This document shows, in pieces, positions 20,086-57,472 of a stretch of DNA of 64,000 bases (position 1 is the stretch's first letter; each line of letters opens with the position of its first letter). The notes under the pieces were generated by a model. The model saw only the letters and a program-made list of their open reading frames with translations, was not told the origin of the DNA and ran no database searches. The stretch comes from Cephalotus follicularis (taxonomy: Eukaryota > Streptophyta > Magnoliopsida > Oxalidales > Cephalotaceae), in contig BDDD01000028.1 of the NCBI GenBank assembly GCA_001972305.1, forward strand, positions 163,545 through 227,544, read 5' to 3'. A program made the position numbers and the translations under genes.

Positions 20086-20455
20086 TTCTGCAGAAAAATG
20101 GACCTTGCCCAGCAAAGACATCGACCCCTAGCCCATGGACGTCGATGTCTTTCGCTTTGGAGTGTTGTATTTGTCATTCTGCAGCAAGGACATCGATGTC
20201 TTTGAAAGACATCGAAGTCTTTGCCTCGAGATGTCTTTGCCCAGGAAGGACATCGATGCCAAACATCGATGCGCATTCCCAGGCTAATTTGATTGAAAAG
20301 CGTCAACATCTTTGTCCAAGGATATCGACGCCTTCAGCCAAACTGAGAAAGACATCGATGTCTTCTAAGACATCGACGTCTTTCTACCATTTTCAAAAGT
20401 ATTCCCTGATACGCTTCGATGTCTTTTGCCAAGGACATCGACGCCTTTTGGGCTG
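20086..20455 (+). promoter_or_regulatory. TCGA palindrome array in D 5' LTR
   Basis: Begins with TTCTGCAGAAAA (20086-20097), then about a dozen units such as GACATCGATGTCTTT and GACGTCGATGTCTTT. Unlike the arrays in other families it lies about 500 bp downstream of the TATA box, in transcribed leader. The 3' LTR copy is 28808-29140. Confidence 0.7.
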
Positions 20456-21411
20456 AGTGGAGTTTTTAACTGTTAAAAGCTGGTTTTCAACTTCTTTTCA
20501 CATTGCCACTTGACTGGAGCCTCACTTCAGGTGTTCAAGTATTTGAAAACAGTTTTAATGATTGTACTGATTGATTGATTGCTTGAGTCATAAGTGTTGT
20601 TATGAGTCTAAGTTGGTATAATGGACGCACGTTCCCATCTCTCCATTAGGCACCACCACTTATTGACTTGGCTCCGACGTTGTATTGATACATTGATTGA
20701 TTGCTTGAGTCATAAGTGTTGTTGCGAGTCTAAGTCGGTACGACGGACGCACGTTCCCATTTTTCCCTTAGACACCACCACTCACTGACTTTGCTTATGG
20801 ACATTGTAATGATATTCTATTGACAGATTGATTATATTGTATGGATCCAATAGAGTGACCTTATGATTCGTATCGGCATGTTAGGTTGTTGACTTTGTCC
20901 ACCTATTCCGTCGATCGTTTCATTCATTGTACTGTATTGACCCGCTGACGAGTGGTACCGATTGATTGTCGATTGATGCTCCCTTGAGGGTCGTAGCTCC
21001 CTCAGTTGTACCTCATCGAGGCTGTATTGACCCAGCCATATGTTGGAAGATCTATGAGTTCCAGACCTAATCAGTCTGAGATTCGTAGATAGATCTCCCA
21101 CCCTTTTCGAAGGACTACCTTCCGTGGGATTGATCACTGCTAACTGATTGACATTGTATTGACACCGGTCGCATGCTCTATAGGATATTGATTGATTGAT
21201 TGATTGGGTGTTGCATAGACCACCATTGAGTGTCTGCCATTGATTGATTGATTGTTATAGATCCTATCCGTATGCTCTGTTATGGGCCACTGTCATACGG
21301 GTAGTCTAATCGCCAATTATACATATGCATTTGCCATGTCATGCATTGATATTGTACACCGCACAGTGATATCGTATAGATTGTCACCGATATTGCACAT
21401 TGTACATGCAT

Positions 21412-21416
21412 ACATG
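21412..21416. repeat. target-site duplication of solo LTR E, left copy
   Basis: ACATG, identical to 22927-22931. The uninterrupted site is seen in the 3' LTR of D at about 30127. Confidence 0.9.
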
Positions 21417-21600
21417 TGTTTAGCATAAAAATGTGTGGTTTTTAATGATATATTTGTTATATTTTTATGCTTGGAATAGACTACTTTGGTTGTGTTTTAA
21501 TGATTTTCAGGTACAAGTGTTAAATCACCAAAGTGCAAGAATACTACCCAAAAGTGTGCAAAATTTGAGTTTAATGAGTAAAGATTGAAGAAATGCCAAA

Positions 21601-22016
21601 TTCTGCAGAAAACAGACCAAAAGCGTCGATATCTTTCAAGAAGAAGTCGATGTCTTTTCTTGCTTTCATCAAACGCGTCGATGTCTTTCATGTACATCGA
21701 TGTATTTTCTGGGTTTACACGATCGCGTCGACGTCTTTCCAGAAGAAGTCGACGTCTTTTCTGGGCAGCACAACAATCTTCAAAGAGCTATGAAAAAGAT
21801 GTCGACGTCTTTCACAAAAAAATCGACGCCTTTTATGCAGATCGACGTTTTTCAACATACACATCGATGTCTTTCAGCAAAATTGACCTATAACTATTGA
21901 GCAAAAGAAGTCGACGCCTTTCAAAAATAAGTCGACGCCTTTCTCTCGCATCTCAGCAAAGTCGTGATTTTTACACAAAGAAGTCGCCGCCTTTCAAGAA
22001 GAAGTCGACGTCTTCC
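21601..22016 (+). promoter_or_regulatory. TCGA palindrome array in solo LTR E
   Basis: Opens with TTCTGCAGAAAA (21601-21612), holds about 14 units of type GAAGTCGACGTCTTT or GCGTCGATGTCTTT, and is followed by CAGCAGAAA (22021). It ends 85 bp before the TATA box. Confidence 0.75.
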
Positions 22017-22100
22017 TCTGCAGCAGAAATAGAAAGTTTAGATTTTTGCCATATTTTGTAACTAGGATTACTTTTATTCCATTTTTGATCAATTGTATAG

Positions 22101-22108
22101 TATATAAA
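22101..22108 (+). promoter_or_regulatory. TATA box of solo LTR E
   Basis: TATATAAA, 85 bp downstream of the repeat array. Confidence 0.65.
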
Positions 22109-22926
22109 CAATGTTATTCGGCCAAATTAGGCAGAGAGAGGGTGGTAGAAACCCTAATTCTTCTTCTCTCCTTAGTTTAGTTTCATTTATGCTTAGTAGC
22201 TAGTTTTTCAAGGTTTTTGGTTAGAACAAAGCCTAGATTGTTATTGTTTCAATTCCATCAATAAAAATCCTTGAATATTTGATTTGTTCTTCAATATTTC
22301 TGCCTTCGCACACACTTTGTTTGTCTGATTAAAATCCACACTCATCTTATCGGTGAAGCTGAAAGTTGGTGAATAAATGGAGTTTAATTCAACGGAGTCT
22401 ACTCATACAATTTGTCGTATCGAACACACTTCGTATAGACCTAGCATGACTACTCATACGTCTTGTCTGATTAAAATCCACACTTCGTATAGACCTAGCA
22501 TGACTACTCATACGTCTTGTCATCACCGCCGCACTCCGTATAGACCTAGCTGCCGTTGTCTACCAAGGTATGATCGTTCAACTTCATGGAATTGTTCAAT
22601 ACAATCTACGGTGAGTTTCTATACCCTAAACCGCTTTTTAATTATATTTTCTCTTAGTTTTTCTTCATTGCTTTAATTAGTTTTAATTTACACGCTTTAT
22701 TTTTAATTATCTTAGTCTGTTATTTTATTTTATTTCTCGTTTTCAATTTTTTATTTTACTTTGCATAATTAGGAGTAGTTTTCGATAGTTTATTTCATAA
22801 ATTGGTATACTTCGCCTAGGTTGGATAAATTACAACTAGTTTACGTTTCCCTGCGTTCGACCCGTTACTGCATGATCCGTGCACTTGCGGCTATAAATTT
22901 TAAAACATTCTTTTTAACAGTGAACA

Positions 22927-22931
22927 ACATG
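22927..22931. repeat. target-site duplication of solo LTR E, right copy
   Basis: ACATG following the terminal CA. Confidence 0.9.
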
Positions 22932-23370
22932 CTGCATGAGGTTTCTGCTTAGGCAGTGTGGCTAATCCCATCCTTTGGGGTGGGGCTGTGTTGTACCTTG
23001 TGTGCGACGTAGGTAGGGCAGTAGGTAGCAGCAGACAGAAAAATTGAAGACTCATTCTTATTGCACGACTGCTTGGGTATTGCAGAGCTAGTTGTGAGAT
23101 TGTAGTGAAAGGATTGAAATGTATTGTATTGAAATGCTGTATTGAAGGATTGATAAATGTAATGTATTGTAAAAGACTAGTATTGTAAAGGATTTGTATT
23201 GTATTACATCGTATGGATGGATATTTGTATTGTATCTTCCGCATTGTGAAATATTTTATAAAGTTTTAAGTTTTTCCGCATTTTTATATTGCTAGTCCTG
23301 ACCATTGTATTGTGTATTGGATTGAGAGTAATGCCACGTGTCCACCCTGCGGGCGCGGGTTGTTACAGAA

Positions 23371-23383: not shown

Positions 23384-23550
23384 ATTGATTATCCTGCTAG
23401 CTAAGTATATTAATGCGTTGATTGAGATTGACTGAATGGAATTGCATGATATATGTTCTTGCTTATTCATGCTATTGTTATTGGAAAAGATATTTATATT
23501 GGAATTGAAAGTGATTGCATCTGATCATCCCATTGTTGTTTTTTCTAGCA

Positions 23551-24720
23551 ATGGATAATAGAGGAAGGCGTGGCCGACATGGTGGAAGGAATGCTCCTGC
23601 CCTTACTCTTGTCCCTGCTCCTGTTGATGATGAACCAACTCATGGTAACGTTTTTCCAAAGTATGATCCAAATGCTCCACCAGCGGGTGCTGACCCTAAG
23701 GTTTGGAGACAGTTGTGTGCCACCATGGCACAGATGCATACTCTGATGGGACGCCAACAGGGTAGAGTTGAACGTAGACCAAGGAAGGAAGACATGTTGA
23801 GCCGCTTCTTAAAGTTACAGCCTCCAGCATTTGTAGGACTCCCTGATCCTACCCTTGCTGAGTCTTGGCTAACCCAATTGGAGAAGATCTTTGAGGTCAT
23901 AGGATGTGATGATGAACAGAGATTGGTATTGGCAGTGTATATGCTCCAAGGAGAAGCCGAGCACTGGTGGGCTATGGTTAACATAGATTAGACAAGGAAT
24001 GGTATAGTCTGCTCTTGGGATGCCTTCAAAAGAGAATTCAATGCAAGGTACTACCCTCAGGTAGAGATAGACAGAAGAGAGATTGAATTTGCTAACTTTG
24101 TACAAGGAAGCATGACAGTTGCTGAGTATGAGGTGAGATTCACGCAGTTAGCCCGATCTGCCCCATACTTAATGGAAGGCCAAGAGCGGAAAGCAAAGAA
24201 GTTCCTTCGGGGACTGAGATTGGATTTTAGGAGGCAATTGACTCCTTTGGGGTTGACCTCCATATCGGATATTTCTTCCCGAGCTATGTAGCTTGAGGAT
24301 TTTGTAGCTGAGGTTAAACTGATGAGAAATATAGCCCGCACCAGGCCTACTCTTTCTTCTAGGCAGAGTGGTAGTGACAGTGGCAGTGCTAAATCGCAGA
24401 AGACTGATAGTAGCCCCTCACCTGGTTCTCATGGTAGCAATCAGGATAGCAGGAACCCATCCCATTCTCAGAGGAGAGGCAGATCGAGGAACGCACATCG
24501 GGGAGACCAATCTTCTGCACCTAGTCAAGGTACACCCTCCAGACTCTCTGGGAGCGATAATCAGAGTGCTACAGTTCCTTGTGTGCATTGTTAGAAGACC
24601 AACCATAAATCTGAGAATTGTATATCGTTCTTGGGCCATTGTTTGGTTTGTGGTGTTCCCGAACACATTGCTAGAGATTGTCCTTGGAGTTCTCGTCCTA
24701 GAGAATTTGATCAGACATAG
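23551..24720 (+). pseudogene. gag: gag of chromovirus D
   Basis: ATG 23551 opens a basic N-terminus (R-R-G-R-H-G-G-R). The capsid domain follows (L-Q-P-P-A-F, then E-A-E-H-W-W). Two CCHC-like clusters lie at about 24582-24700 (C-V-H-C and C-L-V-C-G-V-P-E-H-I-A-R-D-C). TAG stops at 23989, 24290, 24592 and 24718 are all in the same frame; at 24290 and 24718 relatives would favour Gln, compatible with CAG-to-TAG changes. Gag would coat element RNA. Confidence 0.88.
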
Positions 24721-24820
24721 CAGGCATTGCCTCCACCGGGATCGACAGCTAGTGTACCGTCTTCTTCCCGTGGGACTTCGCAGTCCAAGAGGAAGCAACC
24801 TATAAGTTCTACTCCGACAG

Positions 24821-25260
24821 TTCAGGCTAGAGTGTTTTCTATGGAACCGAGTACTGCAACAGGGTCAGATGTTGTGATTGGAGGTACCATTCAACTCTTT
24901 CAGCTTCTAGCACGGGTTCTTATTGATCCGGGTTCATCACATTAATTCATTGCATTGCATTGCATTTTGTCGCCCATGTTGGTTTGAGACCTCAGTACCT
25001 TCCTTTCTTGATGGAGGCATCCACACCTCTCGGTGAGTCAGCGGCCACCGATCGAGTGTGTAGAGATTGTATTGTAGAGATTGATGATCGTTGCTTATTA
25101 GCCGATCTTATTGTCTTACCGATGGATAGCCTAGATGTGATTCTTGGCATGGATTGGTTGTCTGCTAGCTTTGCTCAGGTGGATTGTCATCGGAAAGTAG
25201 TGGTTTTCAGTCCTCCGGGACGACCACCTTTTCGGTTTCTTGGCACCTTAGAGCCATAGT
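24821..25260 (+). pseudogene. chromovirus D aspartic protease
   Basis: The site V-L-I-D-P-G-S-S-H lies at about 24916-24942. D-P-G-S is the usual plant chromovirus form of the D-S/T-G active site, so the catalytic Asp is retained. A TAA follows at 24943 and a frameshift near 24955 moves the C-terminal half (V-I-L-G-M-D-W-L) into frame 3. A TAG at 25257 separates it from RT. Confidence 0.82.
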
Positions 25261-26062
25261 TTGTTCCGATGATATCAGCTTTGCATGCGGACAGATTGTT
25301 ACGACAGGGATGCCAGGGGTTTCTGGCACATGTGCTCGATACAGACATATGGTGGCCAGAACTGGAAGATATTCCAGTGGTTTGCGAGTTTAAAGATGTT
25401 TTTCCTCGGAATTTAACGTCGTTGCCGCCAGACAGAAACATAGAATTTATGATTAATTTGATACCACGAACTACACCGATTTCTCGAGAACCGTATCGAA
25501 TGGAACCGATAGAATTGAAAGAGTTAAAGATACAGTTACAGAATCTTCTGGACAAAGGTTTTATAAGACCTAGTGCTTCACCCTGGGGAGCACCTGTTAT
25601 TTTTGTCAAGAAGAAAGATAGATTGCTCCGTATATGTATTGACTACCGACAGCTCAATAAAGTTAAAGTGAAGAATAAGTACCCTCTACCACACATTGAT
25701 GAGCTGTTCGACCAGCTTAGAGGAGCGACAGTGTTTTCTAAGCTCGACTTGAGATCGGGCTACCACCAGTTGAAAGTCAGACCAGAGGATATTCCGAAGA
25801 CGGCTTTCAGATCGAGATATGGCCATTATGAGTTCTTAGTTATGCCTTTTGGTGTGACTAATGATCCCGTGGCTTTCATGGACCTGATGAACTAGGTGTT
25901 CAGACAGTATTTGGATCAGTTCATTGTAGTGTTCATTGACGACCTCTTGGTCTATTCCAGGACTGATGAGGAGCATACCCAACACCTCTTCGTTGTAGTG
26001 TTCTGGTGACGGTTTTTTAGTGGATCCATGGAAAGTAGAGGCAGTGAAAGTTTGGAAATGAC
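25261..26062 (+). pseudogene. chromovirus D reverse transcriptase with internal deletion
   Basis: The long open frame from 25269 contains [11 protein letters not shown], the motif A block L-D-L-R-S-G-Y-H-Q, and M-P-F-G-V-T. After a TAG at 25893 comes F-I-D-D-L-L-V-Y-S, so both catalytic Asp of motif C are kept. About 100 bp normally encoding the segment after E-E-H-T-Q-H-L appear deleted near 25990-26005. Reading resumes in another frame at V-D-P-W-K-V-E-A-V. RT copies element RNA into DNA; this copy is inactive. Confidence 0.87.
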
Positions 26063-26620
26063 TGATGAATGCTTTCGAAGTTCGCAGCTTCTTGGGTTTA
26101 GCAGGGTATTGTCATAGGTTTGTTGAGGGATTTTCTCTTATTGCAACACCGTTGACCAGATTGACACTGAAGAACGCTGCCTTTGTATGGGATAGTGATT
26201 GTGAAAGAAGTTTTCAAGAGTTGAAAGATAGATTGGTTTCCACTCCTGCCTTAGCTTTTCCAGACGGGAACGAGGACTTTGTTGTATACACCGATGCTTC
26301 TGGAAAGGGGCTTGGTTGTTTTCTTATTCAATACGGCAAAGTGATTGCATATGCATCGAGAAAGATCAAATCACATGAAGAAAACTACCCAGTGCATGAC
26401 TTGGAGTTGGCGGCCATTGTCTTTGCTCTTGGAAAATGGTGCATTTCACTGATCATAAGAGTTTGAGATATCTCTTTTCACAGAAGGAATAAAACATGAG
26501 ACAGAGAAGGTGGTTTTATCTTCTTAATGATTATGATTATGACATTGAATATCATCCTGGAAAAGCAAATGTCGTTGCAGATGCATTGAGTCGCAAGCTA
26601 TCTTGTTCGACTCTTTCCCA
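26063..26620 (+). pseudogene. chromovirus D RNase H
   Basis: After R-S-F-L-G-L-A-G-Y, the RNase H block [10 protein letters not shown] and [10 protein letters not shown] are intact in frame 1. The domain continues after small frame changes to N-V-V-A-D-A-L-S-R, the usual end of RNase H, at about 26570-26600. Confidence 0.85.
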
Positions 26621-26639
26621 TATACAGGTGCAACCTGCA

Positions 26640-28041
26640 TTGCTTGACCGGATTAGAGATGCATAGATAGTGGATATTGAATTACAGAAAGTGGCTACTG
26701 CTATGGATGAGGGTTTGAAACTCGATTTCTCTCTATCTACAGATAGGTTATTGAGATACCGGAATAGAATTTGCATTCCAGCCGATAGCGAGTTGAAGGA
26801 AGAGCTTCTTTCTCAAGCTCATAAATCTCGTCCTCTATCCATCTAGCGAATACGAAGATGTATCGAGACCTAAAACTTAGCTATTGGTGGATTGGCATGA
26901 AGAGAGAAATAGCGGAGTTTGTATCGAGATGCCTCATTTGTCAGCAAGTTAAGGCAGAACACTAGAGACCGGCAGGCTTGCTTCAGCCTTTGCTCATTCC
27001 TAAGTGGAAATGGGAGCACATTACCATGGATTTCGTGTCTGGGTTTCCTCTGACTCGTGACAGACATGATGGTATTTGGGTTGTGGTCGATCGACTCACG
27101 AAGTCGGCCCACTTCCTACCGATTTGGATGACTTATTCTAGAGAAAAGTTGTCCAGATTGTTCTTGAAAGAGATTGTTAAAGCACATGGAGCTCCTGTCA
27201 GCATTGTTTCGGATCGAGACTCTAGCCTCACTTCCGGGTTTTGGAGGAAGTTGCAGGTAGCTATGCGTACAGAATTTAGTTTCAGCACTACTTTTCATCC
27301 CCAAACAGATGGTTTGTCCGAAAGGACTATTCAGAAATTGGAGGACATGCTTCGAGCATGCGTTCTCGACTTTGGAGGTAGTTGGGATAACTACTTACAT
27401 TTGATTGAGTTCTCATATAATAATAGTTATCACGAGAGCATACAGATGGCTCCCTATGAAGCCCTATATGGTAGGAAGTGCAGATCACCAGTTTGTTGGG
27501 ATCAGGTCGGTGAAAAAGAGCATTTTGGGGCCAGAGATTGTACAGATTACCGCAGAGAAAGTGAAATCTATTAGAGACCGATTGATTGTTGCACAGAGTA
27601 GACAAAAAAGCTATGTTGATGTTCATCGTAGAGGCTTGGAATTTAGTGTTGGTGACCATGTTTTCCTCAAAGTGTCACCCACTAAAGGAGTCATGAGATT
27701 CGGGAAGAAAAGGAAGCTTTCTCCTCGTTTTAATGAACCTTTTGCCGTATTGGATCGGATTGGATGACTTGCTTACAAGCTTGCCTTTTCTCCAACATTG
27801 TTGGGAGTTTATGATGTGTTCCATGTTTCTCAGTTGAGGAGATATGTTCTAGATCCTTCACACATCATTGAGTATGGTCAGATGCAACTAGAACCTGACT
27901 ATTCGTTTGTCGAGACTCCTATACAGATTATTGATCGACAGATCAGAGTATTGAGGAACAAGACCATTCCTTTGGTCAGTGTTCTATGGCAGTATCATGG
28001 ATCAATGGAGCGCACCTGGGAGCGTGAGGACGATATGTGAG
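26640..28041 (+). pseudogene. chromovirus D integrase with C-terminal chromodomain
   Basis: The HHCC zinc region (Q-A-H near 26815, then C-L-I-C-Q-Q at about 26930) is broken by stops. The core is in frame 2: Asp in T-M-D-F-V-S-G-F, Asp in S-D-R-D-S-S-L-T, Glu in L-S-E-R-T-I-Q. A frameshift near 27515 moves the GPY/F-like part into frame 3. The tail from I-Q-I-I-D-R-Q through T-W-E-R-E-D-D-M (about 27925-28037) is a chromodomain-like module. In this lineage it is thought to steer insertion to heterochromatin. A TGA at 28038 ends it. Confidence 0.87.
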
Positions 28042-28120: not shown

Positions 28121-28299
28121 TGTGACGACCCGAATCCCCTTTTGTACTGTTCATGCATACATTGTACCGTATTGTACTGTATTGGACCGTATCGAATTGT
28201 ATTGAATTGAGGTATTCCTATACCTATTGAGATTGTATTGGTTATATGCATGTATAGTCGGGATTTTGGATCGAGTTTCAGAGAGTTGATCGAATCGAC

Positions 28300-28307
28300 T
28301 ATATAAG
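28300..28307 (+). promoter_or_regulatory. TATA box in D 3' LTR
   Basis: TATATAAG, same position as in the 5' LTR. Confidence 0.65.
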
Positions 28308-28807
28308 TCAATTCTTTCTCTCATTTCTCTCACATTTCTCATTATTCTTCCTCTCTCTATCCTTTTCCCTCTCTCTCTCTAGCTGGAGCCTCCATCTTTC
28401 TCCCTGGCAGCTGGATTACATCTCCTTCTTCAAGGATACCGATTGCACGTTATGGGTTGCCGATTGAACAAGAAATAGCGAGTTATTGGGCGATTTCTGC
28501 CGATCGACTGATTGGAAGCTCAACTTTTGAAGCTTCGTTAAAGGTAGGACTTCCCTACTTGTTTGCCTATTGCTTTATTGCATAATTGATTGAATGATTG
28601 ATTGAATTGAGTGATTGTATTGCATTGAATTGAATGAATTGGGGTTTTTAGGGTTTTTAAGAAATCCTTGACCTAATTGTTAATAGAAAGATTGAAATGT
28701 TAAATTGAAGGTTGTAACTAGTTTTACTAACCTTAAAGACTGATTTTTAACCCTTGGTTTCTTAAAGAATGGGTTTTGAAGTGATTTTGGCCTTAAAATT
28801 GCTGGTT

Positions 28808-29140
28808 TTCTGCAGAAAAATCGACCTTGACCAGTAAAGACATCGACTCGTAGCCCATGGACGTCGATGTCTTTCGCTTTGGAGTGTTGTATCTGTGATT
28901 CTGCAGCAAAGACATCGATGTCTTTGAAAGACATCGACGTCTTTGCCTACCAAACATCGATGCGCATTCCCAAGCTAATTTGATTGAAAAGCGTCGAAGT
29001 CTTTGTCCAAGGACATCGACGTCTTCGGCCAAACTGAGGAACACATAGATGTCTTCTAAGACATCGACATCTTTGTACCATTTTTAAAAGCATGCCCTGA
29101 TACGCATCGATGTCTTTTGCCAAGGACATCGACGCCTTTC
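28808..29140 (+). promoter_or_regulatory. TCGA palindrome array in D 3' LTR
   Basis: Copy of the 5' LTR array, opened by TTCTGCAGAAAA at 28808-28819. It has a small deletion relative to the 5' copy near 28950. Confidence 0.7.
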
Positions 29141-30335
29141 GGGCTGAGTGGAGTTTTTAACTGTTAAAAGCTGGTTTTCAACTTTTTTTCACATTGCCAC
29201 TTGGCTTGAGCCTCACTGGAGGTGTTTAAGTGTTTGAAAACAGTTTTAATGATTGTACTGATTGATTGATTGCTTGAGTCATAAATGTTGTTGTGAGTCT
29301 AAGTCGTTATAATGGACGCACGTTCCCATCTCTCCATTAGGCACCACCATTTATTGACTTGGCTCCGACGTTGTATTGATAGATTGATCGATTGCTTGAT
29401 TCATAGGTGTTGCTGCGAGTCTAAGTCGGTACGATGGACGAACGTTCCCATTTCTCCATTAGACACCACCACTCATTGACTTTGCTTATGGACATTGTAA
29501 TGATATTGTATTGACAGATTGATTGTATTGTATGGATCTTATAGAGCGACCTTATGATTCGTGTCAGCATGTTAGGTTGTTGACTTTGTCCACCTATTTC
29601 GTCTATCATTTCATTCATTTTACTGTATTGACCCGCTGACGAGCGATACCGATTGATTGTTGATTGATGCTTCCTTGAGGGCCGTAGCTCCCTAACGGTA
29701 TCAGTAGCTCCCTCGGTTGTAGCTCATCGAGACTGTATTGACCCAGCCATAGGCTGGAAGATCTATGAGTTCCAGACCTGATTAGTCTGAGAACCGTAGA
29801 TAGATCTCCCACCCTTTTCGAAGGACTACCTTCCGTGGGATTGATCACTGCTAACTGATTGACATTGTATTGACACCGGTCTCAAGCTCTATAGGATATT
29901 GATTGATTGATTGATTAATTGGGTGTTGCATACACCACCATTGAGTGTCTGCCATTGATTGATTGATTGTTATAGATCCTACCCGTATGCTCTGTTATGG
30001 GCCACTGTCATACGGGTAGTCTGATCGCCAATTGTGCTTATGCATTTGCCATGCCATGCATTGATATTGTATACCGCACAGTGATATTGTATAGATTATC
30101 ATCGATATTGCACATTGTACATGTATACATGCTGCATGAGGTTTCTGCTTAGCCAGTGTGGCTAACCCCATCCTTCGGGGTGGGGCTGTGTTGTACCTTG
30201 TGTGCGGCATAGGTAGGGCAGCAAGTAGCAGCGGATAGGAGGATATAAGACTCGTTCTGATTGCACAACTGCTTGGGTATTGCAGAGCTGGTTGGGAGAT
30301 TTTAGTGAAAGGCTTGAAATGTATTGTATTGAAAT

Positions 30336-30340
30336 GCTGT
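30336..30340. repeat. target-site duplication of element F, left copy
   Basis: GCTGT, identical to 39236-39240. Confidence 0.9.
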
Positions 30341-30789
30341 TGAAATAAGTAAAGAGTGAAAGGAAAGAAAAACTTCTTCGATTTAGAGTGGTTTGGCTAA
30401 CTCTTGCCTACGTCCACTTTTCCCAAGGGAGCTCCTTCAGTTTCCACTATCTCGAATTGATTATGGTAGCAATTCGTTACACCTTACAACTTCGTGATTG
30501 ACCTCAATCAAAAGACCTTGACCTCAAGATCTTAGAGGATTCTCCTCTTTTACAAGTGTTTGTGAATGTGTTTACAAGATGACCTCTCAATAGGTTTGAT
30601 TTGGCAAATACATAACACAATATGAATCACAATGAAAAACTCAAAGGATGGAGCTTTGAAGCTTTTGAGAACACTATAGACCACTTGAGCTTTTTGACAC
30701 TAGAATGCTTGACTTTGATTTCTCTCTTGATGTTGTGTAATTCTTATTTTTGTATGAATTGTTGTACTTCTATGAGGTTTGAATCTTCC

Positions 30790-30797
30790 TTTATATA
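30790..30797 (-). promoter_or_regulatory. TATA box in F 3' LTR
   Basis: TATATAAA on the minus strand, 93 bp from the edge of the array. Confidence 0.65.
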
Positions 30798-30890
30798 GGC
30801 AGAAAAGTCTTGTAGCCGTTGCATAAATGCTGGAAGCTTTTGATTTAAAAATGTGTTGATGAAAACTTTGTTTTTGTCTCTGCTGACATA

Positions 30891-31515
30891 AAGACGTCGA
30901 TATCTTCAGAAAGGCGTCGATGTCTTTGACTGTTACTAGCCGATGCAAGTGCGTTTACTAGCCGTTCCATGTTTCCTGGGTCAATCATTTTAAAAAGATG
31001 TCGATGTCTTTTCTGGGAATGTGTCCAGGCATTTGAACTTATGATCATCACATCGACTTCTTCTTCATGGGTTGATGTCTTTTCTGGCTTTGGCAGATAG
31101 GTCTAGAAAGGCGTCGATGTCTATGGGAAGGGATCGATGTCTTTTGTTGGACGTCGATGTCTTCTGGAACATGGATTGATGTCTTCACATAAAATTGACC
31201 TGTAACTTTGGCAGCTCAAGACGTCGATGTCTTCTTGAAAGGGATCGATGTCTTTCCTTTGGAAGGCGATGTCTTTGCCTGTAAGGATCGATGTCTTTGC
31301 TCAATTTTGACCTGTAACTTTGGTGTACTAAAGACGTCGATGTCTTTCTTCAAAGGGATCGATGTCTTTGCTCAATTTTGACCTGTAACTTTGGTGTACT
31401 AAAGACGTCGATGTCTTTCTTCAAAGGGATCGATGTCTTTCTCCAAAATTGGCCTGTAACTTTCGTAGCTTTAAGAAGTCGATGTCTTCTTCAATGGGGA
31501 TCAATGTCTTTTTCC
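30891..31515 (-). promoter_or_regulatory. TCGA palindrome array in F 3' LTR
   Basis: About 19 units such as GACGTCGATGTCTTT and GGATCGATGTCTTT, partly in 70-bp tandem blocks that also contain ACCTGTAACTTTGG. On the element strand it is followed by TGTCAGCAGAGAC, then about 80 bp to the TATA box. Confidence 0.8.
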
Positions 31516-31628
31516 TTGTAGTTGATTTTTGCCTTTTGTGAAGCTTTTTAATATCTTGCACATTAAGTAAACTTGTTAAATGCAAATATGTTATCATCAA
31601 AACTAGGATTGAGACTAAATCGTCAACA

Positions 31629-31642
31629 ATCTCCCCCTTTTT
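31629..31642 (-). other. polypurine tract of element F
   Basis: AAAAAGGGGGAGAT on the minus strand adjoins the 3' LTR. Confidence 0.85.
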
Positions 31643-32292
31643 GATGATGACAAAAATTTGCTCAAAAAAAGGCATAAGTATAAAGCATAAGTGATATCAA
31701 ATAAGCATAAATAAGCAATGTTCATAAATAAGGTTCCATTTGAATGTGCAGCTCTATTTCCAGTGCTTTTGAGCTATTTGAGCTCTATCTCCACCATAAT
31801 TATAAGCAATATCAATTAGCTATCTCCCTCATGTCAATGAGCTATGCTTTTGAGAGCTCTTTCTCCCATAACTATATTGAGTTCTATCTCCCCCATAATA
31901 TAGGCAATATTAATGGAGCTATGTTTTTGAGCTCTATTTCTCCCCCTTTTTTTGTATAGCGTCAAAAAGGTAGAAGAAATTAGCTCCCCCTTAATAAATG
32001 AAAGGGTAAATAAAATATCAATAACATGAACATTATCATAAAACATAAACAATTAATACTCCCCCTTACGAAATCAAGATATCAAAATATCGGCAATAAC
32101 ATTCACAAAACATTAAAACATTAATACCATAATTCAGAAACACAATTTTATAAACAACCATAATGTCATTAACAAACACTTTTGTTCTTACAAGAATGCA
32201 GAAAAATACATAAACATATAAGTTTCATTACAATAAAAAACAACAGCAAATTACAGCTAAAAACAGCAACAACAAGCAACCAAAAAGAGCAA
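31643..32292 (-). repeat. 3' region of F with extra purine tracts
   Basis: At least six CTCCC/CTCCCCC blocks on the plus strand (near 31789, 31826, 31862, 31890, 31940, 31984 and 32060), several within a repeated GAGCTCTAT.TCTCCC context. These are degenerate copies of the purine tract, a Sirevirus trait. No gene. Confidence 0.65.
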
Positions 32293-33630
32293 TCAAGAAT
32301 CATCAGCAGGAGGATCGGAATCATGAGAGGAGTCGTCGCCCAAAGTCTCTTCGCATGTGTCAATAACCTTGGAAGCAGCGAACTTTCGTTCCAACCTTTT
32401 GAGACGTCTCTTGGTGACTTTTAGATCATAGTAGATAGTATCATCGACACTCTCAAAGTCGGATCGAATGGTCAAGTGATCCTTTTCCAAGATATCAAGC
32501 CGCGAATTCACTTGCCCAAATTTGCTTTCAATCGATGCTTCCATAGAATCAAACCTAGAGTTCAAAGCATCGAATCTAGCACTCATAAACTCGATCATCC
32601 TATCATAATCACTAGTGGATGACAATCCTTTAACTTGAGCAGGTTGAGGTTCTTCTTGGGCTTCCCATGGAGGGATTTCTTCTTGATCTTCTCTTTCAAG
32701 CTTTTGTCCTTGATCACTCTTTGGACAGTAGGTCCAAATTCCTCCTTGCTTCTTCCATCCCATCCTATTCAATGTGCTCTTATTGTAGGTGTCTTCCTTC
32801 TTTAACTTCGTTCCTATTTCTCCTTCAAGACGCACATGATGATGTCGGAAAATTTTGGTGAGAATACATCCGAAGGGAAAGACGGATTTCTTTTGGGTGA
32901 ATGCTCGCACCATGGTGTGGAGCATGAGTAGAGGATAGCAAAACTCAATCTTTGAAATGATGCACCACATCAAAAATTCTTGCATCCTTGAAAGTTTAGC
33001 GTATCCACCACCGGTGGGAAGAAGTTGATGAACGATAAGGTGATGGAGAAGGCGATGATCCACAGAGAGTTTGTTGGTGCAAAGAGCCATGTTTGGGTGT
33101 ATGTTTGGATCATTGGGATAAAGAATGGACAAAATGTGATTGGGGTGAAAACCCTCAACTTCTGGCCATTTCTTGTATTCGAAAATGTAAATGCCGGTGT
33201 GTGGAATATGAAGAATAGAAGCTAGAATCCTAGCATCTAGGAAAATCCGTTGCCCTTTAACAGTAGAGGAGAGAGCAAACTCCTCATGAGGGCTAGACAC
33301 AATCCTAAGGTTCATATAGAACTCTTTGACCAATTTGACATAGAAAAGGTCCTAAATTTGGACAAGGGGAATGAGGTGTAACTCTTCAAGCCAGGAAACG
33401 AAGGAGAATTCAGAGGAGCAAAAAGCTAGGTTAATGTTTCTTCCTCCCATAACCCATTTGTCCACAAAGGCTACATTTCGGAGGGGGACTTGTTCTTCGG
33501 ATTCGGAATCCGATTGAAGAGCTGGGTCGGGGGAAGGTTCCCTAATGTTAAGCTTTTGCTTTTTATCAGATTTCTTAGGCTGAGAAGAGGAGGCAGCCTT
33601 CTTAAAAGCAGTTGATTTTGTCCTAAACAT
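32293..33630 (-). pseudogene. accessory gene of F: plant transposon-protein domain plus coiled coil
   Basis: One frame of 446 codons with a single TAG at 33352-33354. Residues 1-50 are basic and Ser-rich, starting M-F-R-T-K-S-T-A-F-K-K. The middle (F-Y-V-K-L-V-K-E-F-Y-M-N-L, then G-Q-R-I-F-L-D, then L-S-V-D-H-R-L-L-H-H) matches the putative plant transposon protein domain seen in accessory genes of plant retrotransposons. The C-terminal 130 residues look coiled-coil and end Asp/Ser-rich. It occupies the env position, but I see no signal peptide or membrane segment. Function is unknown; the basic, H3-like N-terminus suggests a nuclear role. Confidence 0.75.
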
Positions 33631-33827
33631 TTTGACAAACAGTTGGTGTGCACAGCAAAGAGAGATAGAGAATGAGAAAAACTGACTTGATTGGAAGAAG
33701 AGAAAACGATATTTGAGGACGGAATGATGAGAGAGAGATGTTCTAGGAACGATTTTTGAAGAAAATGAGAGAGAAATTTTTTTTTCGAAATGCTCAGAAT
33801 TAGGGTAAAGTGAGAGATGAGTGTGGA

Positions 33828-34082
33828 GTCGACATTTTTATGAAAAAGTCGATACCAGGTAAAAGACGTCGACGTGATTCCAAAGACGTCGACGCGTTCT
33901 TTAAAAAACGAACGAAAGGCATCGTCCAAAAGAGCCAGGAAACGATGCGTTTTGAAAGGCATCGACGCGCTTACAAAGGAGTCGACGTGTTTCAAAGAGA
34001 GTTAAAGAAATCGATGTTTTGTAAAAGAGATCGCGTGTTTGCATAAAACATCAAAGTTTTTAGAAAAGAAGTCGACGTGTTT
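33828..34082 (-). promoter_or_regulatory. TCGA palindrome array upstream of the F accessory gene
   Basis: About ten units such as GACGTCGACGTG and GGCATCGACGCG stand between the end of RNase H and the accessory start codon. They are followed on the minus strand by TTCATAAAAATG (TATA-like) and CT-rich leader DNA. This suggests an internal promoter. Confidence 0.55.
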
Positions 34083-34187
34083 TTGTAAAAACAGGATAGT
34101 ATCAAGCAAAAACACAATAATAATCAACAATCAATCTTCATTTTAAATAAGCATACAATTAAATCAATCATTCAAACAAATAAACAT

Positions 34188-34850
34188 TCATTCAAGTTCA
34201 CATAAACCTAATTCTCTTCTAAACTTTGAAAAAGAGTTTTCATCTAGAGGTTTAGTGAAAATATCCGCAACTTGTTTTTCGGTGGGAATATATTCTAAAA
34301 CAATATCTCCACTTTCAATATGTTCTCTTAAAAAGTGATATCTAATGTCAATGTGTTTTGTCCTAGAATGATGAACAGGGTTCTTTGCTAGACAAATACT
34401 ACTAGTGTTATCACATTTTATAGAGACATCTTTTATGCAAACACCATAATCAATCAATTGTTGCTTTTGCCATAAGATTTGTGCACAACAACTACCTACA
34501 ATAATGTATTCAGCTTCGGTGGTAGATAAAGCAACTGATTTTTGCTTTTTACTAAACCAGGAAATAAGCATACTTCCTAGGTATTGGCATGAGCCACTAG
34601 TGCTCTTGCAGTCAACTTTATATCCACCAAAGTCAGCATCCGAGTAAGAATGTAAATCAAAATTAGAGTCTCGGGAATACCATAAGCCTAGAGTAGGTGT
34701 ATATGCAAGATATTTGAAAATTCGTTTTACAGCAAACAAATGAGATTCTTTTGGGTTTGATTGAAAGCGAGCACACAAGCACACACTAAACAATATATCG
34801 AGTCTACTAGCAGTTAAATACAATAAAGACCCTATCATACTTCTATAAAG
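34188..34850 (-). pseudogene. Sirevirus-like F RNase H
   Basis: Intact frame with D-A-D-F-G-G, S-T-S-G-S, T-E-A-E-Y-I and C-D-N-T-S-S, then K-H-I-D-I-R-Y-H-F. It ends in G-L-C-E-L-E and a stop. The domain itself has no lesion and is classed as pseudogene only because the polyprotein is interrupted upstream. Confidence 0.88.
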
Positions 34851-35720
34851 TTTTTGATCAACATTTTTACCTTGTTCGACTTTGTCAAGCTTTGTAGAGG
34901 TGCTCATAGAAGTCTTACTTGTTTTAGCTTTCTCCATTCCAAACTTTTTGAGTATTTCTTTTACGTACTTCGTTTGGTTGATGAAGATTCCCTCTTTGTT
35001 TTGTGTCACTTGAAGTCTAAGAAAAAAGTTGAGTTCTCCCATTAAGCTCATTTCAAATTCTTCCTTCATAGTGTTAGAAAATTCCTTGCACAAAGATTCG
35101 TTAGTAGATCCAAAACTAATGTCATCAACATATATTTGCACAATAAGTAAATCATTTCCTTTAGACTTTGTAAAAAGAGTAATATCGACATTGCCTCATT
35201 TAAAATCATTTTCAATTAAAAACTTTGTCAATCTCTCATACAAAGCTCGAGGGGCTTGTTTGAGACCATATAAAGCTTTGTTTAATTTTAAAACATGATA
35301 TGGAAAGAAGGGATCCTCAAAATCTTGAGGTTGTTCAACATACACTTCTTCTTTTTTAAAACCATTTAAAAAGGTACTTTTCACATCCATTTGATATAAT
35401 TTGAAATTTTTAAAGCAAGCAAATGCAAGTAACAATCGAATGGATTCTAGTCTAGCAACCGGTGCATATGTTTCATCATAATCTATTCCTTCTTCTTGTG
35501 AATAGCCTTGTGTAATTAATCTAGCCTTCTTTCTAATTATGATCCCTTGATTATCCATTTTATTCCTAAATACCCATTTAGTCCCTATTACCGAATGATC
35601 CTTAGGTCTAGGTACCAAAAACCAAACTTTGTTCCGTTCAAATTGTTTTAGTTGTTCTTGCATAGCTACTATCCAATTTTCATCATTTTCAGCTTCTACA
35701 AAGTTCTTGGGTTCAAAGTG
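34851..35720 (-). pseudogene. Sirevirus-like F reverse transcriptase
   Basis: Motif A (Q-M-D-V-K-S-T-F-L) and motif C (I-Y-V-D-D-I) keep all catalytic Asp. The only lesion is a TGA at 35196-35198 in the same frame, between the F-L-I-E-N-D-F-K segment and N-V-D-I-T-L. Relatives have Arg here, so one CGA-to-TGA change explains it. Confidence 0.9.
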
Positions 35721-36804: not shown

Positions 36805-36807
36805 CTA

Positions 36808-39235: not shown

Positions 39236-39240
39236 GCTGT
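39236..39240. repeat. target-site duplication of element F, right copy
   Basis: GCTGT. Confidence 0.9.
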
Positions 39241-42445: not shown

Positions 42446-42453
42446 TTTTTATA
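42446..42453 (-). promoter_or_regulatory. TATA box of solo LTR G
   Basis: TATAAAAA on the minus strand, 87 bp from the array. Confidence 0.6.
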
Positions 42454-42540
42454 CTACAAAACTTATCAAAATCAGAAATAAATCAATCCTAGTTACAAAA
42501 TCTGGCAAAAAAATCTAACTTTCTATTTCTGCTGCAGAAG

Positions 42541-42863
42541 AAGACATCGACGCCTTTGGTTGGACATCGACGCGTTTTGCAAAAAAATTGCGTTTTGCTG
42601 AGATGCACGTGAAAGACATCGATCCCTATAATGAAAGACGTCGATGTCTTTTGCTTCAAAACTTACAGGTCAAATTTGCTCAAAGACGTCGATCTGTTTG
42701 ATGAAGGACGTCGATGTCTTTTTCATAGCTCTTGAAGGTAAGTTGCAATTCCCAGAAAAGACATCGATCCGCAACAAAAGATATTGACGCGTTTAATGCA
42801 AACCCAGAAAAGACGTCGATCCCTATGAAAGACATCGACGCGTTTTGCTCTGTTTCTGCAGAA
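42541..42863 (-). promoter_or_regulatory. TCGA palindrome array in solo LTR G
   Basis: About ten units. On the minus strand it is opened by TTCTGCAGAAA (42853-42863) and closed by CTGCAGCAGAAATAG before the TATA box, as in E. Confidence 0.75.
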
Positions 42864-43047
42864 TTTGTCAATTCCTCAATCTTTACACTTTGAAGCTCTA
42901 ATTTGCATAACTTTGGGTAGTATTCTTGCACTTTGGTCTTTTAGCTCTTGTACCTGAAAATCAATATAACACAACCAAAGTAGTCTATTCCAAGCATAAA
43001 AATATCACAAATAGATCATTAAAAATAACACATTTTTATGCTAAACA

Positions 43048-43500: not shown

Positions 43501-43501
43501 C

Positions 43502-45593: not shown

Positions 45594-45790
45594 AGACCCC
45601 CCAGGGGGCACAAAAGACCCCCCCAGGGAGCACAACAAAAAGACTACCTAGGGGGCACAACAAAAAGACCACCTAGAAGACGCCCCAGGGGGCACAAAAA
45701 AAAGACCCCCCAGGGGGCTCTACAAAAAGACCCCCTAGGGGGGAATTCTAAAAAGACTTCCAATGAAGCAATAAGACTCCCCAGGGAGCG
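45594..45790. repeat. hairpin-forming tandem repeat in C
   Basis: About seven units of 25-30 bp of the form ACAAAAAGACCCCCCAGGGGGC. Each carries a perfect CCCCC(A/T)GGGGG-type stem. A decayed counterpart stands at 63920-63985 in J. Confidence 0.85.
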
Positions 45791-46348: not shown

Positions 46349-46876
46349 TCTGCAGAAAAAGAAGTCGACTCCTTTCCAAATAGCATCGACGCCTTTTGTA
46401 CAGAGTGAACTCGAAAGAAAACATCTACCTCCCAGTTATAGCATCGACGTCCGTACAAAAAGAAGTCGACTACTTCCAGAAGACGTCGACTACATTCAAG
46501 AAGACATCGACTACTTCAGTGAACACATCGACGCGTTTAGACATTTTTGGGACCAGAAGCTACTGTATGAAAATTGCACTCAAAGACATCAATCCTCAAC
46601 AAAAGACATCGACGTGAAAGAAAAAGACATCGACGCATTTATATAGAGATCGACAACATTTTCATCATACCCAGAAAAAGCATCGACACCAGGTAAAGAG
46701 ATCGATGCGACATTCAACCTGGAGTTTCCCAGAAAAGACATCGACGCCTTTAGAAAAGAAGTCGACGCCTTTTCAAATAGACAACACCAGGGAAACATGG
46801 AACGGCTAGTTCAACCACTTCTAACGGCTACAAACTGAAAGACATCGACGCCTTTGGTAAAGAAGTCGACGTCTTT
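46349..46876 (+). promoter_or_regulatory. TCGA palindrome array in solo LTR H
   Basis: About 17 units. Opened by TCTGCAGAAAAA (46349-46360) and followed by TGCCAGCAGAGAC (46877). It ends 92 bp before the TATA box. Confidence 0.78.
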
Positions 46877-46968
46877 ATGCCAGCAGAGACTAAAAACAAG
46901 GCTGCATTAACAAAATGTCATATCCAACATGCCCAAGACTTTTGCAACGGCTATAATGTGAATAAGGC

Positions 46969-46976
46969 TATAAATA
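46969..46976 (+). promoter_or_regulatory. TATA box of solo LTR H
   Basis: TATAAATA, 92 bp after the array. Confidence 0.65.
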
Positions 46977-47512
46977 GAGGTCAAGAAACAAAAAACATAG
47001 AAGAGAAGAACACAACTCTTGATCATCTAACATCCAAGATCAAATTTGCACATTTACATCAAAGCCTTTTTTGTTTACACTTTTATATCCAACCTTTGAG
47101 AGGTTACTTGTAAACACACATTATCTTTACAACTCATTCATTGTAAAAGAGGGAAGTGAACCCTCATAAGGTGTTAGTTTGATTTACACCCGGAACCCAA
47201 AATCAAGTGTAAGGTGTTTGATTGATTTGCACCCGGAACCCAAAATCAATTGTAAGGTGGTTTGTTTGATTTGCACCCGTAAGCCGAAAATCAAAGGTGG
47301 CTAGAAGGATTCTAGTGGAAACTCAAGAGGTCTTGAGAAAGTGGACGTAGGCACGGATTTGCCGAACCACTATAAATTTTGTTTGCACTCTCTATCCCTT
47401 AACTCCTTATTTATTTGTTATTGAGTGCTTGCTTATGTTCATAGCTTAATTTGTATTTTCCGCATACAAATTGTTTTAGCTTAAGGTTGCCATACATAAA
47501 CGTTTACCAACA

Positions 47513-54950: not shown

Positions 54951-54971
54951 CCAGCAACAACGCCAAAAACT
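54951..54971 (-). other. primer-site region of element B
   Basis: The minus strand reads AGTTTTTGGCGTTGTTGCTG right after the LTR, a decayed form of the TTTGGCGCCGTTGCCGGGG text of Athila-like elements. Confidence 0.75.
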
Positions 54972-55154
54972 TGTTCATGATTTTTTAAAACAATTAAATT
55001 TATACTGCAAGTGCACGGTTGTGCAGTAACGGGTTGAATACTAAGAAATAAGTTAAATCATTTTAATCTATTCAACCCAGGCAAAATATGAAAAATTGAG
55101 GGTAATTATTGATCTATACTCCTAAACATGCAAAAATAAACTAACTGTTGAAAC

Positions 55155-55250
55155 AGGCGTCGAAAGCGTTGACGCTATGATGAAGAAGTCGATGTTTGTA
55201 ACTGAAAACTACTGAAAGCGTCGACGCTTTGATGCAAGGCGTCGATGGTT
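55155..55250. promoter_or_regulatory. AGCGTCGACGCT-type palindromes in B 5' LTR
   Basis: Counterpart of 15340-15420. Further TCGA-core copies stand at 55935-56055. Confidence 0.5.
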
Positions 55251-56821
55251 ATGCGTACTGAATCGAAACTAACAGAAATACTAGATTACAAAACAAGAAA
55301 TAAAACTGAATAAAATATGCAAGATAAAATTTGTTTTAGGGTATAGAAATTGACCATAGATTATATTGAGAACTCACTTACTTTGAAATATCAAACCTTG
55401 ATAATTAGTAGCTGCTAGGTCGATACGGAGTGTGTCTGTGATGACAGATCGTATGAGTAGTCATGCTTGGTCTATAGGAGTGTGTTCGGCATGACAAACC
55501 GTATGAGTAAACATCCATTGATTTCGTGCAAAAACCATTCATTCAGCAACTTTCTTCTTCACAGACAAAGTGTATGTGGATTTTAATCAGACATACAAAG
55601 TGTGTTTGATGTCAGAAAATTGAAGAACAAATCAAAGGTTCAAGGATTTTTATTAATGGAGTTTCATCAATACATCTAATGGCTTTGTTCTAACCCTAAA
55701 AATCTTGAAAGTTTAGTTAGAAAACATTGAAATAAAAGCTGTAAAAATTAAAGGAACAGGGCAACCACTGTAAGAGTTTGTCCGTCGTTTTTGTGGCCTC
55801 CCTTTTCCTTTTATGCTTACAATCACAAAATAGAAAACGAAATAAAATTAAACCTATTTATTCCTATTTAATGTACTAATTACAATCCGAATAAAACTCC
55901 AAAAAATTTCATATTTTGTTTCCTGGTATATCGTAGGCGTCGCCGTGTTGTCGCTGGGCATTGACGCTTTAAAGTGTGAAGGAGCACTTGAATATTAATA
56001 GTGGCAAACTTGAGGTGCTAATCGTCGACGCTAACAAGCAAAGCATCGATGCCTAGAATGTGAAAGCAGGCATGGTGTTGACACCTTTCTTGTTGCGCGT
56101 TAATGATTATAGCTTTTGTTTGAATTGAGAAACTTTTGGAATTGACGACTATATGTTCAATTTGCAGCACGTTTACATACATGATAATGGCATTGATTAA
56201 AATCATCCTAAAGCCCAGCACGTTAACGCCAATAATATTGGCGTTGGCGCCAATTGTCCAGATATGCATAACTTTGCTACTTTTCTTCGCTTCAATTTGC
56301 ACCAATTGGAATAGTATTTATGCACTTTGATCATTTTGCCTTTGTACCTAAAAATCAATAAAAATAAAATAAAGAAAACAGCTCTTGCAATATACAAGAG
56401 GGATGGGGGTGGATTGAATATTAAAGCAAATACAAACAAATAACTAAAACTTTAAATCAAAGAGTATAGGGAAAGAAAGATTCTCTATTTTTAGAGTGGT
56501 TCGACTAACTCTTGCCTACGTTCACTTTTCCCAAGGGAGCTCCTTGAGTTTCCACTAGCTCAAATTGACACCTCACAATATTGCGATTGACCTCAAGACC
56601 TTAGAAGATTCTACTCTTTCACAAGTGCTTAAAAGTGTTTACAATACAACCTCTCAGTAGGTTTGATTTGGCTTACAATGAAGAACACAAGACAGAATGT
56701 TAAAAGGTAAAGCTTTGAAGCTTTTTAAGACACTAAGAGCACTTTGAATTTTGTAGAATGTAGCTTGCTTGACTGCTTGAATTCTTTGTTTCTTGGTGTG
56801 TTCTAAAGGCCTGGATCTTCC

Positions 56822-56829
56822 TTTTTATA
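56822..56829 (-). promoter_or_regulatory. TATA box of solo LTR I
   Basis: TATAAAAA on the minus strand, about 96 bp from the array. Confidence 0.6.
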
Positions 56830-56925
56830 GCCAAAAAATCCTTGTATCCATTGCTTAAATCATGGAGGTTAAGATTTGAAAATATGATGATTTGTTGTAA
56901 ACTCTGTTATGTAGCCGTTGAACCA

Positions 56926-57472
56926 AAGCCGTCGATGTCTTTTATAAGCGTCGATATCTTCATCAGTTAACTAGTCGTTGCTAGCATCCAGAGCGTAATT
57001 TTGTGGAAAGACGTTGATGTCTATAATGGACGTTGATATCTTTTCTGGAGTTGTCGCCAGACTTTGAAGATATGAGCAACACATCGATGTCTTTGTAAAA
57101 GATCGATGTCTTTTCTGGAAAAATAGATGTTACGAAAAACACATCGATGTCTTTATTACGGGATCGATGTCTTTTAGTTGGACGTCGATATCTTCATATA
57201 ATCGGATCGATGTCTTTCTTCAGAATCAGCCTGTAACTTTAGAGCTTTAAACACATCGATGTCATTATAAACACATCAATGTCTTTGAGTTGAAACGTCG
57301 ATGTCTGTTCAGGAAAAGATCGATGCCTTTGAAGGAAATCTACCTGTAACTTTTGGTGCTAAAAATGTCGATGTCTTCTCAGAAAAGGATCGATGTCTTT
57401 CATGAAAAACCACCTGTAACTCCTTGTGCTTAAAGACGTTGATGCCTTCTTTAAATCCCGTCGATGTCTTTT
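56926..57472 (-). promoter_or_regulatory. TCGA palindrome array in solo LTR I
   Basis: About 18 units such as ACATCGATGTCTTT and GGATCGATGTCTTT. It keeps the ACCTGTAACT phrase seen between units in F. Confidence 0.78.

Follow-up and report, generated by a model that had tools for sequence, protein, structure and literature searches.

The window analysed here is a stretch of 64,000 nucleotides of the Cephalotus follicularis genome (contig BDDD01000028.1), which contains long terminal repeat (LTR) retrotransposons of the gypsy and copia superfamilies, named by letters (Table 1). Elements E and F are nested in the two LTRs of element D, and this nesting is visible in the window itself. The LTRs of D, E, F, G, H and I carry arrays of a short palindrome, AAAGACRTCGAYGTCTTT (the unit), as had been stated in an earlier reading of the letters alone (the sequence-only reading). 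Judged by alignment, the Athila-type gypsy LTRs hold an array that is collinear with the array of Sireviruses, which are copia elements, over about 230 bp and is inverted relative to transcription.

D retains coding pieces, among which the rve match is weak (E 0.00086) and the Chromo match reaches only E 0.046; its LTRs start with TGTTACG or TGTGACG and end with TGTTACA, and its primer binding site (PBS), TGGTATTAGAG, is decayed. On these domain matches, including the weak one to a chromodomain, D is probably a chromovirus-type gypsy element. The LTRs of F (31628-30341 and 39235-38256, the latter without its 3′ end) are 97.2% identical over 981 bp. Its terminal polypurine tract with the AT/TG attachment site, AGGGGGAGATTG, is exact at 31638 on the minus strand; the Sirevirus LTR/PBS junction was sought as CA/ATTGG-TATCAGAGC, for which the 5′ LTR end of F is missing and a related LTR on contig C1 has CAATTAGTATCAGAGC (216854, minus strand). 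By its polypurine tracts, attachment site, array positions and 3′ ORF with PF20167, F is a copia element of Sirevirus type. At locus L036 an LTR end of E type is followed by the primer site GAACA-AGTTTT-TGGCGCCGTTGCCGGGG, of a non-chromovirus tRNA type that we take to be tRNA-Asp, and because of this site E and G are called Athila-type. In the available part of a published survey, tRNA-Asp is among the primers of non-chromoviruses (PMC6317226). Unrelated coding regions are shown directly only for F and D, since both E and G consist of a solo LTR and no coding region is attached to H or I in the window.

A search of the whole genome assembly (1.577 Gb, 9,746 contigs), which the sequence-only reading had proposed, found the exact unit at 51,413 places, against 187 for the pattern read backwards; the unit is its own reverse complement, and reading backwards served as the control. 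With up to three mismatches allowed, the window holds 79 unit sites, the backwards window none, and each of 20 dinucleotide shuffles none or one. In a second stretch, positions 100001-300000 of contig C1 (the C1 block), 100 sites were found against 0 backwards. The sequence-only reading had made a shared module depend on a concentration of the motif in LTRs, and in the window and the C1 block this was found: nine arrays contain all 79 window sites, eight of them lying in LTRs and one (33862-34082) inside F, and 13 of the 14 arrays of at least three units in the C1 block were placed in LTR elements, the exception being the array at 252944. The carriers in C1 are LTR pairs, LTRs resembling F or D, the interior of an F-like element, the solo LTRs K1 and K2, which have exact target site duplications (TSDs), and a relative of these two. 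Rfam gave no match in the window, and six 14-mer forms of the motif, sought in literature text, gave a single match, in a paper on the human kappa-opioid receptor.

TCGA forms the centre of the near-palindromic unit and is its best-kept part. Over the 179 units counted in the window and the C1 block together, mismatches at the centre letters T, C, G and A numbered 1, 5, 6 and 1, respectively, and those at each of the other twelve fixed positions 12-57. The first unit statistics admitted units with 4-5 mismatches only if their centre was TCGA, which biased them towards a conserved centre; a recount without this rule, at up to three mismatches, gave a CG centre in 168 of the 179 units. A basic leucine zipper (bZIP) C-box had been suggested as the core of the motif; this reading is weak, as ACGT is missing from both halves in 35 of the 179 units, those with R=A and Y=T, and an ACGT-less unit is exact at 28908. 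Read in the sense of the LTR, the two half-units differ: in each of the nine copia LTR arrays measured it is the left half that is better conserved, in the arrays of E and G the right half, while D is nearly symmetric. Higher-order tandem units of 71 and 112 bp occur within the arrays.

Successive units peak at a spacing of 19-22 bp in the Athila, Sirevirus LTR, Sirevirus internal, D and K arrays, least sharply in D. The doublet pattern TCGAYGTCTTT-N(0-20)-AAAGACRTCGA, which allows centre spacings of 18-38, was found at 23,825 genome places against 81 backwards. Among the places listed in contig order, a sample of C1-C3 only, all 50 distinct doublets have spacings of 19 (10 doublets), 20 (9), 21 (18) or 22 bp (13), and the letters of their spacers vary widely. 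Such a phase corresponds to about two helical turns, the distance that would set a pair of dimers on the same face of the helix, and it fits that arrangement rather than any need of a hairpin.

The non-palindromic spacer TTGACCTGTAANTTTNG, found at 2,018 genome places against 10 backwards, is common to the Athila arrays of E and G and to Sirevirus arrays of the F, I and A217 type, in collinear order. Ten of its 100 listed loci, hand-picked to cover the variants, were compared; relative to transcription the spacer is sense in four of four Athila-type and antisense in five of five Sirevirus-type LTR loci, and the remaining locus (L045) matched no reference LTR. Six Athila arrays were then aligned with ten copia arrays, giving 60 pairs. 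Unmasked, these alignments score up to 119 over about 230 bp, with doublets and spacers in equal order, against at most 59 for the reversed control, which is fair here because the units are palindromes; 52 of the 60 pairs score higher as given than reversed. With the units masked, 47 pairs beat all 100 shuffles in inverted orientation and 4 in equal orientation. The LTR starts of E and G used in some comparisons are 1-2 bases off the tabulated ends. By these alignments the Athila E/G arrays and the Sirevirus F-type arrays are homologous and not just similar. Weaker signals came from two other sets. When the copia LTR arrays, in antisense, were aligned with the internal copia arrays, in sense, the given orientation outscored the reversed one in 17 of 20 pairs (maximum 53 vs 42); between copia arrays and D it did so in only 4 of 30 (maximum 59 as given, 62 reversed).

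The distance from the array end to the TATA box is 85 bp in E, L039, L040 and L043, 86 bp in G and 105 bp in L046, which form the Athila group. It is 92 and 91 bp in the 3′ and 5′ LTRs of F, 92 bp in H, 95 bp in I, 91 bp in A103 and A106, 94 bp in A201, and 92 bp in A207 and A217; further copia-group loci give 91 (L037), 92 (L041) and 95 bp (L042 and L044), and at L038 no TATA was found after the array. The window values lie within 1-2 bp of those of the sequence-only reading. D lacks this common spacing, because its array lies downstream of the only TATA found, which starts 840 bp (3′ LTR) or 862 bp (5′ LTR) before the array end. As seen at 28121-28400, this TATA is only about 180 bp into the LTR and is followed by a CT-rich tract, so that the D array is probably in the transcribed leader.

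The sequence-only reading had also described borders, and these are present. An opening border, TTCTGCAGAAA or TCTGCAGAAAA, adjoins the arrays of E, G, H and both D LTRs, and no exact window copy of these 11-mers lies away from an array; CAGCAGARA follows the array as CAGCAGAAA in E and G and as CAGCAGAGA in F and H. The presence of borders at other copies, on which the idea had been staked, was not found in the C1 block, where none of the 14 arrays has the opening border within 60 bp; the shared array itself stands. A 5′ palindrome, TTTTCTGCAGAAAA or its core, occurs at five window array places (D twice, E, G and H) and at two other places in C1 100-300 kb, one just upstream of an array of a second palindrome type (229563) and one about 190 bp past the array at 252944.

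Whose borders these are is indicated by B4 (C1 137840-136600), a sister Athila LTR whose array slot holds another palindrome, AAGCGTCRAYGCTT, with eight matches at up to three mismatches. This palindrome is related to the unit, has a similar spacing and occupies the identical slot, and its array also ends about 90 bp before TATA. The flanks of B4 match G and E on both sides, none of 300 shuffles reaching the score in any of four comparisons; copia flanks show no clear match to G (168, 51 and 20 of 300 shuffles reach the score), the 5′ flank of G against copia H, at 20 of 300, being borderline. Between copia and Athila, the segments from array to TATA show no homology, the score being reached by 81-230 of the 300 shuffles in each of ten comparisons. 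Because the Athila flanks match B4 and the copia flanks do not clearly match, the Athila borders and TATA distance are, on these alignments, Athila's own, and the array alone is common to Athila and Sirevirus. The borders were therefore rejected as evidence of transfer, the CAGCAGARA segment being no significant copia-Athila homology. As a counterpoint, TTTTCTGCAGAAAA or its core is concentrated at the window arrays, yet is found at none of the 14 type 1 arrays in C1 100-300 kb. There is also a resemblance between the array ends of E and G and the opening border of H when inverted (score reached by 0 of 300 shuffles; by 1 of 300 for A106), in a stretch that includes unit sequence.

Thus, of the claim that families with unrelated coding regions share array, borders and spacing, the array does occur in F (copia) and D (chromovirus-type); D is without the spacing, and between array and TATA the copia and Athila sequences are no more alike than chance allows. 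One module common to copia and gypsy LTRs survives as a shared array, upstream of TATA in two lineages and homologous between the F and E/G types, and the argument that shared borders favour its transfer falls away.

Table 1. Retrotransposons, palindrome arrays and related features, in window coordinates unless C1 is named.
Feature	Position	Strand	Remarks
B1, sister Athila-type LTR	15138-16574	-	one 4-mismatch unit site; no array of the AAAGACRTCGAYGTCTTT unit; GTCAACGCC-type repeats
D 5′ LTR (TG...CA)	19398-23367	+	interrupted by E (21417-22926); followed by decayed Met-type PBS GAATGGTATTAGAG
D 5′ LTR array	20114-20448	+	border TTTTCTGCAGAAAA at 20084; TATA upstream, ~19587
E, solo LTR, Athila-type gypsy	21417-22926	+	TSD ACATG; nested in D 5′ LTR
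E array	21619-22015	+	TATA ~22101
D coding remains	23515-28040	+	pieces: gag, RVP_2, RVT_1, RNase H, weak rve, SH3_Tf2-1, weak Chromo
D 3′ LTR	28121-30340 and 39236-39467	+	split by F
D 3′ LTR array	28857-29139	+	TATA upstream, ~28300
F, Sirevirus (copia)	30341-39235	-	nested in D 3′ LTR; TSD GCTGT
F 3′ LTR array	30890-31489	-	TATA ~30797
F polypurine tracts	31631-32066	-	four exact AGGGGGAG, at 32066, 31991, 31947 and 31638
F 3′ extra open reading frame (ORF) pieces	33837-33352 and 33351-32296	-	33351-32296 matches PF20167
F internal array	33862-34082	-	between reverse transcriptase piece and 3′ extra ORF
F 5′ LTR array	38497-39118	-	TATA ~38405
G, solo LTR of E family	41613-43047	-	77.5% to E; flanks GAGGC/GAGGT
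G array	42540-42845	-	TATA ~42453 (minus)
H, Sirevirus-type LTR, array	46358-46876	+	TATA ~46969; similar to an LTR pair in C1
B2, B1 family (89%)	54972-56367	-	one 4-mismatch unit site; followed by decayed Athila-type PBS
I, Sirevirus-type LTR	57590-56450	-	similar to F
I array	56925-57471	-	TATA ~56829
Type 2 arrays, examples (C1 block, L005-L024)	C1 157789-158285, 231717-232213, 169480-169655, 184215-184293, 281837-281916

Other palindromes are arranged in a similar manner. Doublets of a type 2 palindrome, CAGYCGACTG, sought as CAGTCGACTG, occur at 46,329 places against 151 backwards; 57 of the 69 listed are 19-22 bp apart (40 of them at 21), and 12 are at 27-28. In C1, type 2 arrays lie in the LTRs of Sireviruses S157 and S225, inside both elements, and in the LTR pairs at 168030, 184062, 232832 and 281639. 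The pairs at 168030 and 184062 enclose gypsy genes (RVT_1, with gag or protease, and SH3_Tf2-1) and that at 232832 a gypsy-type gag, nesting being possible in each case; the pair at 281639 encloses only a copia-type ORF (RVT_2, minus strand), perhaps nested. As far as the enclosed genes identify the carriers, the type 2 palindrome follows a similar spacing rule in copia and gypsy. A type 3 repeat, ACGTCAACGCC, is found in sense in the Athila LTRs B1 and B2 and in the two LTRs of one Sirevirus element, S260 (C1 260692-265726), the whole of the sample for this type. Unmasked sense alignments of B1 with S260 score 55 and 52 against shuffle maxima of 34 and 38, and those of B2 score 37 and 34 against 30 and 34, which is marginal; with the motif words masked, 11, 85, 16 and 214 of 300 shuffles reach the scores. 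Type 3 is thus a case of motif sharing, and it no more than suggests a transfer between Athila B1/B2 and S260. In addition, window positions 11616-12214 hold 22 matches (up to two mismatches) of a palindrome GAGGTCNGACCTC, mostly 20-21 bp apart, and positions 45597-45732 hold CCCCCNGGGGG-like palindromes, some of them 22-25 bp apart.

Palindromic boxes before TATA are already known as a Sirevirus trait. Bousios et al. (2010; PMC2829016) described, in the part of the paper available, palindromic repeated motifs (RM) that precede TATA in 13 Sireviruses and, where an element contains an envelope ORF, precede that ORF as well; these were called Sirevirus-specific and absent from classic copia elements. 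The arrays of F agree with that description in their many palindrome copies in the U3 region before TATA and in the linker before the 3′ ORF, and the terminal polypurine tract and attachment site of F match as well (PMC2829016). The published distances, about 45 bp from RM to island edge and a mean of 37 bp from island to TATA, sum by our addition to about 82 bp, which is similar to the 91-95 bp here. The CGG-CCG core signature of the RM differs from the TCGA found here, Tnd-1 ACAATCGATTGT being the one listed exception with a TCGA centre. A further difference is that here the unit also lies in gypsy LTRs; gypsy carriers are not described in the available text of PMC2829016. Neither gypsy carriers, nor the inverted homology, nor the spacing rule was found there or in literature searches on such sharing and on Cephalotus retrotransposons, as far as the retrieved texts extend, and these points are new. 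The statement of the sequence-only reading that no such module had been described thus holds for the gypsy carriers and not for the boxes themselves.

Plant LTR elements of the Tnt1 type have tandem activator boxes in U3, repeated and partly palindromic, upstream of TATA. To our knowledge, such boxes are few in copy number, confined to one family and not common to gypsy LTRs. Box I of Tnt1 is named as symmetric in the available part of PMC2829016.

The explanation to which we give most weight, with moderate confidence, is that palindromic repeat boxes of Sirevirus type make up the arrays and are present in Athila- and chromovirus-type gypsy LTRs too, where they are predicted enhancer sites for a dimeric DNA-binding protein, and that the Athila array, with its inverted collinear stretch, was likely captured at the DNA level. 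At each doublet two dimers would bind one face of the DNA and, whichever way the array points, would increase transcription or hold the LTR open. The array would have passed from Sirevirus to Athila, through gene conversion, break repair or an insertion nested in antisense; among the few families sampled, the unit is present in F, H, I, A103 and A217, and no array of it in Athila B1-B4, which makes the Sirevirus the likelier donor. Reverse transcription gives both new LTRs the U3 region of the old 3′ LTR, and such copying would then have placed the array in both. D and K1/K2 share the unit and doublets, with no spacer homology detected in the comparisons of D, and so may have acquired or evolved them separately.

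Several observations weigh against this explanation. The masked homology is none for H and weak for A103, and neither D nor the internal array of F has clear spacer homology to the LTR arrays; the same holds between the type 2 arrays of Sireviruses S157/S225 and those of gypsy. Sireviruses S157, S225 and S260 in the C1 stretch carry other motifs, so that the direction of donation is drawn from few sampled families. No more than two independent lineages show the TATA spacing, and since the B4 array of another type keeps it too, it says little about the AAAGACRTCGAYGTCTTT unit. Finally, the array of D lies downstream of TATA, and therefore a fixed promoter position is not required.

An unlikely explanation, though the best of the alternatives, is convergence alone, in which one host transcription factor selects palindromes and phasing in unrelated LTRs and nothing is transferred. 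It would suit D and the type 2 gypsy arrays, which share unit and spacing rule without clear spacer homology, and B4, which has its related palindrome in the same slot; it does not account for a spacer as particular as TTGACCTGTAANTTTNG, held in collinear order by the Athila E/G and the Sirevirus F/I/A217-type arrays.

It is rather improbable that the palindromes act as nucleic-acid structure, with hairpins of transcript or DNA feeding or evading small-RNA silencing. Work by Bousios in 2016 is said to have linked maize Sirevirus palindromes to hairpins and small-RNA silencing, and shuffled versions do fold less well than the arrays themselves (F z -5.1, with 0 of 20 shuffles as good; E z -3.7, 0 of 100). 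However, any palindrome array should out-fold its shuffles, hairpins do not require the 19-22 bp phase, and the array sits elsewhere in the LTR of D.

Neutral tandem repeats, functionless and spread by gene conversion between LTRs, are a still poorer candidate. The higher-order units are tandem, and most or all of the array is missing in two E-family LTRs (L033 and L034), as such repeats would allow; the constant doublet spacing across many different spacers, the second palindrome with a similar rule and a TCGA centre far better kept than the rest of the unit all speak against them.

Template switching between co-packaged sense RNAs, by which the sequence-only reading had array, borders and TATA spacing move as one module, is the least credible of all and for Athila is largely refuted: the homology of the array across superfamilies, the similar TATA spacing and the TTCTGCAGAAA border at D, E, G and H agree with it, but it predicts equal orientation and the spacer orientation is opposite, which would call for packaged antisense RNA, the array-to-TATA segments are not homologous, and both Athila flanks match B4, all of which makes it an unlikely source of the inverted array.

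VANDALs are DNA transposons. They offer a parallel in their dense tandem short motifs, which lie in non-coding parts of the transposable element (TE) and evolve by tandem duplication, and VANC6 also acts on an unrelated motif-bearing element, AT9TSD1 (Hosaka et al. 2017; PMC5735166, available part). The difference is that the protein binding VANDAL motifs is known (PMC5735166), and the reader of the Cephalotus arrays is only hypothetical. By this analogy a TE-encoded reader is possible, though unsupported. In a more speculative extension, which we hold improbable, the Sirevirus 3′ ORF, behind its own copy of the array, would encode a VANC-like reader of phased TCGA palindromes that opens LTR chromatin; Athila and chromovirus elements would hitch-hike by taking over arrays, and the palindrome types would be separate codes, each with Sirevirus and gypsy users. 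The 3′ ORF piece of F has 423 relatives, and the 120 listed are all from Cephalotus follicularis, the best with 92% identity; no PDB sequence matched it below E 0.2, and its predicted structure (mean pLDDT, a per-residue confidence score, of 46.7) is too poor for use.

The regulatory parts of retrotransposons are usually viewed as inherited with the family, and here a unit and a spacing rule cut across copia and gypsy in tens of thousands of copies. If the arrays do have a single protein as their reader, much of the genome's transposon load would be under the control of one factor, and the sharing of promoter parts between superfamilies of parasites would become directly testable.

Further details of these LTRs were observed. 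Sirevirus-type LTRs have GCAACGGCTA between array and TATA (46876-46969; matching places in F, A103 and A207); AACGG is the core of mitosis-specific MYB sites. Near their 3′ end, a stretch of about 105 bp (GAGTGGACGTAGG...GAACCACTATA; 47309-47417 and several C1 places) is kept among otherwise diverged LTRs of this type. In the E-family LTRs L033 and L034, from which most or all of the array is gone, the ends of the missing part lie near the similar CTGCAG borders. Several close relatives of the E LTR end (L027-L032 and L035) match only from LTR position ~1100-1190 on, and L032 begins near its contig start.

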